A stretch of DNA of 64,000 nucleotides, taken from NCBI RefSeq assembly GCF_025244905.1, contig NZ_CP104285.1, positions 4,340,001-4,404,000 on the forward strand, written 5' to 3'. The notes under the pieces are model-generated. The model worked only from the letters and a program-made list of their open reading frames with translations. It ran no database searches and was not told the DNA's origin. The DNA is from Enterobacter mori (GTDB lineage: Bacteria > Pseudomonadota > Gammaproteobacteria > Enterobacterales > Enterobacteriaceae). The position numbers were made by a program, and so were the translations under genes. Shown here piece after piece: positions 10,675-12,810 of this stretch (the stretch's first letter is position 1; every line of letters starts with the position of its first letter).

Positions 10675-11238
10675 TCAGCGATGGAGGAAATTTGCCAGCA
10701 GCGCGTGCCCCTGCTCGCTGAGGATGCTTTCCGGGTGGAATTGCACGCCTTCGAGATCCCACTCGCGGTGACGGATCCCCATGATCTCCTGAGTATCGCT
10801 CCAGGCGGTCACCTCAAAGCAGTCGGGCAGCGTCGGCGGGTCAATGACCAGGGAATGGTAGCGTGTCACGGTTAACGGATTATTGAGCCCCGTGAATACC
10901 CCAGTGCCCGTGTGGGTGACTGGAGAGGTTTTACCGTGCATCACTTTGGCGGCGCGCACGATGGCGGCACCAAACGCCTGGGCAATGGCCTGATGGCCCA
11001 GGCAGACGCCCAGAATCGGCAGTTTGCCTGCATAGTGGCGGATAACATCCAGAGAAATGCCCGATTCCGAGGGCGTACACGGCCCCGGCGAAATCACGAT
11101 TTTCTGCGGGGCCAGCGTGTCGATATCGGCCAGAGTGAGGTCATCATTACGGCGGACAACCACCACTGCACCCAGTTCACAAAAATACTGGTAAAGGTTC
11201 CAGGTGAAGGAATCGTAGTTATCAATCAGCAGAATCAT
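10675..11238 (-). CDS. pabA: Aminodeoxychorismate synthase glutaminase subunit PabA
   Basis: This 187-residue class I glutamine amidotransferase supplies ammonia to PabB for 4-amino-4-deoxychorismate, the folate precursor. The nucleophile is in [15 protein letters not shown] (Cys79 region); the catalytic His-Glu pair is in [13 protein letters not shown] near the C-terminus. The oxyanion segment [12 protein letters not shown] is also present. Length and sequence match E. coli PabA. It follows the fic-derived gene by 30 bases in the same direction. Confidence 0.97.
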
Positions 11239-11268: not shown

Positions 11269-11853
11269 CTACTCAGATTCCCACGCTTCGCTCACTACTT
11301 TGGCAAAGATAGCGTTCAGCGCGGTCAAATCGCCCATCGCGCCGCTTCGGTTAGCCGCCACCCACTGCTCGGGATCGATATCCCGCCAGTCCAGCGCGTA
11401 ACCCGCGTGGAGTGCCAGCTGCTCGAAGAAAACGCGTTGGGCAATACCGTTGCCGCGCATAAAGGGATGCAGCATATTGATTTCACAGTAGTAGTGGCTA
11501 ACCCGGTCAACAAAAGCCGCCTTCTCAAGACCCACAAGATACTTTTCGCTTTCAAGCGCCGCCATCAGTTCGTTGCCCATCTTCTCGATGTACTCGAAAT
11601 GGCAGAAGGGAATGTCACCCTTAAAAATATCGTCGGTACGGAATTCGCCTGCCCGCTTCATCTCGCTGTGATACAGATGGCGGTGAATCAGGCACAGATG
11701 GGGCAACCCGGGCGCGGATGGCCCAAGCTCCAGCATCTCGATGTGGGGCGCGGAAGGACCATGACCTTTTTCAAGGAGACAACTGGCCTGCAAATTGACG
11801 CTACGCTGCTGTTCCCAGAGACGGGATTTTTGCTTGTCGGTGAGTTTTTTCAC
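11269..11853 (-). CDS. Chimeric YhfG-Fic protein
   Basis: This 194-residue protein starts with GTG at 11853, behind GGGAGG. Residues 1-29 (MKKLTDKQKSRLWEQQR and onward) match the N-terminus of YhfG, the small antitoxin encoded just upstream of fic in E. coli. From about residue 40 (LELGP...GLPHL...) it matches Fic from about residue 48 to its end. The YhfG C-terminus, the yhfG stop, the fic start and the Fic N-terminal YPG segment are missing. The Fic motif reads HPFMRGNGIAQR (residues 129-140): His and GNG are present, the usual acidic residue is Arg and the following Arg is Ile. YhfG contributes S24-C-L-L-E28-K29, resembling the inhibitory-helix motif (S/T)xxxE(G/N). Fic enzymes AMPylate target proteins; activity here is uncertain. 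Confidence 0.85.
   Translation of the reverse strand: MKKLTDKQKSRLWEQQRSVNLQASCLLEKGHGPSAPHIEMLELGPSAPGLPHLCLIHRHLYHSEMKRAGEFRTDDIFKGDIPFCHFEYIEKMGNELMAALESEKYLVGLEKAAFVDRVSHYYCEINMLHPFMRGNGIAQRVFFEQLALHAGYALDWRDIDPEQWVAANRSGAMGDLTALNAIFAKVVSEAWESE

Positions 11854-11959: not shown

Positions 11960-12810
<851 letters not shown>

Follow-up and report, generated by a model that had tools for sequence, protein, structure and literature searches.

The Fic protein of Escherichia coli is the founding and name-giving member of the Fic family. As of 2016 its activity and target were unknown and its partner YhfG was classed as its antitoxin (PMC5033356); Makarova et al. 2009 had named YhfG as a Fic antitoxin family (PMC2701414). 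The toxin and antitoxin, EcFicT and EcFicA (PDB 5jff, 5jfz), are encoded by two overlapping genes, and in the crystal S24 and E28 of EcFicA bind R146 of EcFicT (PMC5033356). Here we analyse a 64,000-nucleotide stretch of the Enterobacter mori genome (contig NZ_CP104285.1, positions 4,340,001 to 4,404,000; hereafter the window), which carries a single gene, yhfG::fic, joining the N-terminus of YhfG to the core of Fic. The fusion shares with the E. coli pair its ppiA-pabA locus, a homologous Fic core (E = 1.1e-65) and the S24/E28 motif of the YhfG helix. In contrast to that pair, which has a complete antitoxin and an Asp-Pro-Tyr (DPY) segment at the Fic N-terminus, it is one chain that lacks both. 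Selection keeps the inhibitory helix and the Fic core together on this chain, and we think it probable, with appreciable doubt, that the fusion is a selected, functional, permanently antitoxin-engaged and class II-like single-chain version of the chromosomal EcFicA-EcFicT module.

Part of this variation has been described before. Stanger et al. 2016 defined an Enterobacter 'subgroup 2' with a distinctive shortened N-terminus, a five-residue deletion, no DPY, a residue other than Arg at motif position R0 and a hydrophobic R1 (PMC5033356). Compared with the text of that paper rather than with its sequences, our fused copies agree in coming from Enterobacter, in lacking DPY and Arg at R0, and in the shortened N-terminus, and subgroup 2 is very probably the form that we call type A below. 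The searched passages of the paper treat it as an N-terminal variant and do not call it a fusion; a figure legend places an EcFicA homologue upstream of all ecFicT genes but one. A precedent for the architecture is provided by the Bartonella effectors Bep3/1, Bep3/2 and Bep4, which, likened here by description, also carry an antitoxin fused N-terminally to a Fic domain and are filed as class III; they differ in being secreted, host-targeted effectors of another lineage rather than a syntenic chromosomal module (PMC8401265). Class II Fic proteins such as SoFic and FICD likewise hold an inhibitory helix N-terminal to the core on one chain, but the fusion departs from their strict inhibitory and catalytic motifs and has a different origin. 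In one further type II toxin-antitoxin system, which we take not to be a Fic protein, both partners also share one polypeptide. The covalent link is what that system has in common with the fusion (PMC4826407). The YhfG-Fic fusion is not named in the searched passages of PMC5651007, PMC3667792 and PMC5675462, and we found no paper naming it in the open-licence literature, surveyed mostly by listing.

The first-pass annotation, made from the letters of the window, had proposed a 194-residue in-frame fusion, and profile searches confirm this on the minus strand from a GTG start. Pfam YhfG (PF10832) matches residues 2-28 (E = 6.8e-8; 32.7 bits against a cut-off of 22.6) and Pfam Fic (PF02661) matches residues 52-146 (E = 3.2e-12; 47.5 bits against 24). 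The 200-residue NCBIfam Fic model aligns its positions 41-200 with residues 35-194 (E = 3e-75). The NCBIfam YhfG model matches residues 1-28 (E = 1.1e-12) at 47.8 bits, below the NCBI cut-off of 77, because half of that model is absent from the fusion. Alignment with E. coli Fic (5jfz_A) pairs fused residue n with E. coli residue n+6, which places the annotated entry into Fic (about residue 48) correctly to within one or two residues and identifies the catalytic His as H129 (E. coli H135) and the second motif Arg as R140 (E. coli R146); Fic classes and residue roles follow PMC5033356. The linker (GHGPSAPHIEM) and S24-xxx-E28-K29 are as annotated, and the frame contains no internal stop. Profile search of the E. 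mori genome gave this one YhfG match and no second yhfG hit. As an EcFicT homologue at the ppiA-pabA locus the gene belongs to the EcFicT-like Fic family, and it falls outside class I FicTA, in which the inhibitory helix comes from a separate antitoxin gene.

The fusion is widespread in the genus. Among 61 Enterobacter genomes, 32 (E. mori window included) are fused, 28 have fic apart from yhfG and one gave no match. This supports the annotated conversion of a two-gene module into one chain and disposes of the possibility that all close relatives carry separate intact genes, as about half of Enterobacter is fused. The frame is full-length and free of stops in 32 of 32 fused copies, which rules out an assembly error or chance. 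A scan of named genomes turned up 16 fused records (L031-L046), some of which probably duplicate assemblies among the 61; their titles are Enterobacter mori, asburiae, vonholyi, chuandaensis, sichuanensis, cloacae, wuhouensis, hormaechei, quasihormaechei and others, with one Lelliottia nimipressuralis and 'Enterobacteriaceae bacterium 89'. At all 28 split Enterobacter loci yhfG has 55 codons and overlaps fic by 11 nt, giving a pair of 760 nt, and the fused gene, at 585 nt, shows a net loss of 175 nt. Since 175 equals 1 modulo 3, the yhfG and fic frames are joined. Comparison with the split relatives shows that this net loss, lying across the overlap, took away YhfG from about residue 29 onwards together with roughly the first 45 Fic residues. 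By junction and linker, fusions fall into five types (A-E), of which type A comprises the Enterobacter copies and that of genome G236 in genus g42.

Codon models without a recombination term were fitted to 33 type-A genes, 32 from Enterobacter and one from g42. The ratio of nonsynonymous to synonymous substitution rates (dN/dS) was 0.126 (F3X4) or 0.143 (F1X4), and fixing it at 1 cost 984 in twice the log-likelihood difference (2dlnL; F1X4). Constraint extends over the antitoxin part (residues 2-29; dN/dS 0.205, 2dlnL against 1 of 49.4) and residues 20-29 within it (0.183, 20.8), the linker (30-41; 0.274, 34.4), the core (42-194; 0.131, 903.9) and the motif region (125-150; 0.036, 283.3). Ten type-B genes gave 0.120 overall, 0.132 (58.3) for the antitoxin part and 0.150 (48.0) for the linker. 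No variation is seen among the 33 type-A proteins at S24, L27, E28, H129, G134, N135, G136 or R140. Together these data show that selection maintains both the inhibitory helix of the antitoxin and the core of Fic within a single chain, and both signs looked to in the first-pass annotation, recurrence in several genomes and a low dN/dS, are present.

Table 1. Features of the fused locus and its neighbours; positions are counted from the first letter of the window.
Feature	Position	Strand	Basis or remarks
Whole fused yhfG::fic frame	11269..11853	minus	194 codons and stop, GTG start; open reading frame, Pfam and NCBIfam profiles
YhfG-derived residues 1-28 (inhibitory helix)	11770..11853	minus	Pfam and NCBIfam profiles; AlphaFold helix 6-27
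Ser24 codon, inhibitory motif	11782..11784	minus	identical in 33/33 type-A copies
Glu28 codon, inhibitory motif	11770..11772	minus	identical in 33/33 type-A copies
Linker, residues 29-39	11737..11769	minus	junction comparison, shuffles
Fic-derived residues 40-194 (E. coli Fic about 46-200)	11272..11736	minus	5jfz_A alignment, NCBIfam
Fic motif HPFMRGNGIAQR, residues 129-140	11434..11469	minus	retains His, GNG and second Arg; substitutions at R0, acid and first Arg
Upstream neighbour ppiA	11960..12532	minus	named by sequence
Downstream neighbour pabA	10675..11238	minus	named by sequence

The neighbours, judged by their sequences, are ppiA (upstream) and pabA (downstream). Two records are unusual. 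L082 (Enterobacter sp. EA-1, CP025776.1) is a split locus with fic spread across several frames, through decay or sequencing errors, and L047 (CACSKA010000004.1), titled Chryseobacterium, holds this enterobacterial locus beside an enterobacterial pabA and is probably a mislabelled record.

Fusions also occur in other genera. A YhfG profile search of the family matched 158 of 392 genomes. Thirty of these, with weak or long-frame matches, were fetched and read by pattern, and strong full-length matches were taken as split; fusions whose YhfG part scores below the profile would escape such a search. Fourteen of the 30 were fused. Adding three Enterobacter genomes of that sample brings the total to 17 of 158, from seven genera. 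Types B to E are spread over six other genera: type B occurs in five g20 genomes, three g66 genomes and G101 and G316 of g42, type C in G295 of g142, type D in G087 of g28, and type E, on a very long branch of the Fic tree, in G230 of g32 (L142:1054-1599). G448 of g42 has type B with an internal stop; its locus (L144) and L049 share a single internal TAG just past the start of the Fic core, a decayed allele of one g42 species. Fused and split forms coexist within g42 (4 and 3; n=7), g66 (3 and 3; n=6) and g142 (1 and 4, with one genome lacking a match; n=6), and g32 has one fused genome and one without a match (n=2). With at least one locus checked per type, ppiA was found beside all five and pabA beside all but type C, where it lies beyond the fetched DNA or was missed.

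Several candidates were set aside. In ten genomes of g115, g151 and g139, YhfG lies in frames of 165-174 and 214-235 residues that resembled fusions and were not counted; a separate canonical fic frame was found in eight of the ten (L118, L121, L122, L123, L128, L129, L131, L135), and none was found by pattern in the short DNA of L117 and L119. Across the order, the profile matched 24 of 295 genomes, nine of them outside the family; of four outside matches examined, three (L179, L180 and L182) have a canonical fic apart from yhfG, and in L181 fic was not found by pattern. At L137 (G164) yhfG is present as two abutting pieces (profile positions 1-24 and 26-54), with no fic frame found by pattern.

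We evaluated how often the fusion has arisen with a Fic-core tree of 113 distinct sequences among 122 rows, skipping the broken frames of L049, L082 and L144 as well as L118, L122, L129 and L132. Type A forms one clade (support 99) beside the split Enterobacter rows, type B (92) groups with three split g66 rows (97), and type C with four split g142 rows (99). The tree requires five changes, its strongly supported branches alone forcing at least four, with the placement of type E unsure on its long branch. Approximately unbiased (AU) tests, run on 81 of the 113 rows thinned by hand with short tree searches, and pairwise among A, B and C, rejected all fusions as one clade (p = 0.0055), A+C (p = 0.0139) and B+C (p = 0.0197), and did not reject A+B (p = 0.114). 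Taken alone, the AU tests thus imply at least two separate origins. We consider five origins most likely, and the data support the view that similar fusions arose again in related genera. Recombination at Thr-Leu codons common to both split genes near the junction is a possible route. The type A, B and C linkers showed no significant match in shuffles to the missing YhfG or Fic stretches (the type C test used the YhfG of g66, that of g142 not having been found by pattern), and in type D only the end of the linker resembles Fic helix 1 (68 of 2000 shuffles).

A similar pattern could result if one ancient fusion had repeatedly been split again or replaced by split alleles. This scenario gains something from the A+B result and from signs that alleles move between genera, by which split forms could return through recombination. 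The g42 locus holds three allele states (split, type A and type B: L116, L139 and L140 against L146-L148). In the pabA tree the g42 genomes with a type A or B fusion sit with their own genus, but their fusions fall with types A and B in the Fic tree. This conflict between the trees indicates that fused alleles were probably transferred between genera into the same locus. In the pabA tree, whose resolution is weak and from which eight of 122 loci that gave no pabA are missing, four split species (L083, L086, L107, L108) also lie in the type-A portion; they represent either returned split alleles or a badly resolved gene tree. Against a single fusion stand the three rejected groupings, the differing length and sequence of the linkers, and the need to recover the deleted YhfG and Fic pieces by recombination only, and we regard it as very unlikely.

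The active-site motif constrains what the fusions might do. The canonical AMP-transferase motif HxFx(D/E)GNGRxxR is absent from the E. mori protein, which reads HPFMRGNGIAQR. Type-A copies carry Met, Ile, Ala, Ser or Val at R0, Ser, Arg or Asn in place of the acid and Ile or Val in place of the first Arg, so that acid and first Arg are absent from 33 of 33 copies. All 28 split sisters read HPFRIGNG(I/V)(A/V)QR, and hence both residues were lost before the type-A fusion and R0 after it. Type B reads HPF(F/L)VGSGRAQR against HPFRIGSGRAQR in its split sisters. Type C reads HPFFAGNGLAQR against HPFREGNGR(A/T)QR in four split sisters, a canonical motif having lost R0, acid and first Arg on the fused branch. 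Type D reads HPFRLGSGRTQR, and type E reads SPFRRGNGRTLR, in which the catalytic His is absent. The motif acid is thus missing from all five types and the first Arg from A and C, which makes ordinary AMPylation by the fusions unlikely and ordinary deAMPylation doubtful.

These losses would suit a binding-only pseudoenzyme, which retains its fold and a partner- or target-binding surface, performs no chemistry and uses the antitoxin helix as a structural plug. The changes in type C, given its canonical split relatives, and the lost His of type E point the same way, and Stanger et al. saw no adenylylation by EcFicT and argued from its structure that it does not bind ATP (PMC5033356). However, the retention of H129, GNG and R140 in every type-A copy, with a motif dN/dS of 0.036, exceeds what a scaffold would need, and on balance we hold a purely binding role to be plausible but improbable.

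The five types nonetheless share a common design. In each, the YhfG part runs to about residue 27-28 and includes Ser24 and Leu27. Position 28 is an acid in four of the five, Glu in types A and D and Asp in types B and C, and is Thr in type E. All re-enter Fic just before Thr-Leu-x-Leu-Gly, without the first ~45 Fic residues and thus without the N-terminal DPY lid segment; within Enterobacter all 28 split copies have DPY and none of the 32 fused copies does. In EcFicT this segment is described as part of a lid lock, in which D10 holds R138 (R0) and Y12 holds the base of the flap, the target dock (PMC5033356). Among 57 split rows of a 100-row alignment (A2; the type E sequence L142 was entered through alignment A1), 45 core columns are identical in all. 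Types A, C, D and E have each lost D69 and W73 among these; R138 is gone from types A, B and C, and N174 from types C, D and E. Losses in at least three lineages thus affect four columns where 0.26 would be expected, and none of 20,000 draws that, as a simplification, treat columns as equally free reached four; excluding type E, three are lost against 0.04 expected. On the simplest reading R138, W73 and D69 would seat the deleted N-terminus, a role demonstrated among the three for R138 only (PMC5033356). The perfect correlation that Stanger et al. reported between loss of DPY and loss of R0 (PMC5033356) holds for A, B and C and fails for D and E, both of which retain this Arg. The core residues that disappeared along with the N-terminus point to where the proposed lid lock is seated.

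An antitoxin acid fixed beside an uncovered dock raises the possibility of a constitutive de-modifier, which would remove AMP or another group as the Pseudomonas Fic-1-AntF complex (8wt0) does from GyrB, a reaction that requires AntF Glu28 (PMC13327609). In that complex Glu28 lies beside the second motif Arg of a similar Fic core (E = 2.8e-28), and Glu28, His and second Arg are all conserved in type A; an acid at position 28 accompanies His and second Arg in types A to D, and loss of the lid would, going by PMC5033356, open the dock. Fic-1-AntF differs in having two chains, the full HPFREGNGR and demonstrated AMPylase and deAMPylase activity, and Fic-1 E139, the motif acid that all five fusion types lack, is listed in its negative patch (PMC13327609). 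Moreover, the type-A acid was lost before the fusion, split sisters already reading HPFRIGNGI. Constitutive removal therefore seems to us unlikely. The broader proposal, in which each recurrent fusion serves solely as a one-chain hydrolase or de-modifier, with Glu fixed, the lid discarded, the dock always open and modifications only ever removed, is one that we put forward tentatively and judge a little less likely still.

Structural predictions agree with an ordered antitoxin segment. With the 100-row alignment, AlphaFold modelled the E. mori fusion with a mean predicted local distance difference test (pLDDT) of 85.9 and a predicted template modelling (pTM) score of 0.86; helix 6-27 was well modelled (pLDDT 96 at residues 11-20 and 91 at 21-30) and the flap region poorly. 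A type-B protein (L139) gave a pLDDT of 82.9 and a pTM of 0.83, with helices at 6-25 and 36-44 ahead of the core. The best Foldseek matches were E. coli Fic chains (template modelling score 0.67-0.69, root-mean-square deviation 6.6-6.8), figures that speak to the overall fold and not to helix seating. Homology with the E. coli complex makes it most likely that the antitoxin helix docks onto the Fic active site of the same chain, acting in cis as YhfG does in trans. Tied to Fic, the antitoxin could no longer be released as a separate protein; the DPY segment, the proposed cover of the target dock, is gone, which may leave the dock exposed; and the working form would be the antitoxin-engaged protein rather than the free toxin.

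Our preferred reading, a functional and antitoxin-engaged single chain, has to be weighed against several observations. Position 29 is Lys in 32 of 33 type-A proteins and Glu in the other, not Gly or Asn, and the strict class II motif (S/T)xxxE(G/N) is accordingly absent; of the annotated likeness to class II, the order of parts stands and the motif does not. The contact between EcFicA R25 and EcFicT T40 is gone, T40 being deleted and position 25 mostly Cys. Split Enterobacter fic (dN/dS 0.065) is under about twice the constraint of the fused genes, one type-B allele carries a stop codon, and type E has Ser for the catalytic His and Thr for the acid at 28. The first point also bears on a switchable, self-inhibited enzyme working in the class II manner, with a signal that lifts the helix. 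The order of parts and the conserved Ser/Glu pair would suit it, but the class II motifs are not those of the fusion and type A lacks two ATP-site residues of AMP-transferases, and we consider such a switch rather doubtful. The weaker constraint, the stop allele and the loss of His in type E would instead be expected of a decaying relic held in frame by chance, as the first-pass annotation had also suggested. Given 32 unbroken copies out of 32, a conserved motif and a dN/dS well below 1 in every segment, decay is the least credible explanation, and we assign it hardly any weight.

Class I Fic modules are said to have arisen from class II by fission (PMC13327609), and the YhfG-Fic fusion runs in the opposite direction. 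The presence of fused and split forms in closely related species offers a natural experiment on the conversion between class I and class II Fic, here in the direction of fusing. If the fusions do remove modifications, the real enzyme of enterobacterial YhfG-Fic would be the antitoxin-toxin complex and not the toxin. If several lineages tie the helix to Fic under selection, release of a free toxin would not be the point of the module in these bacteria, and it is the complex that should be studied.
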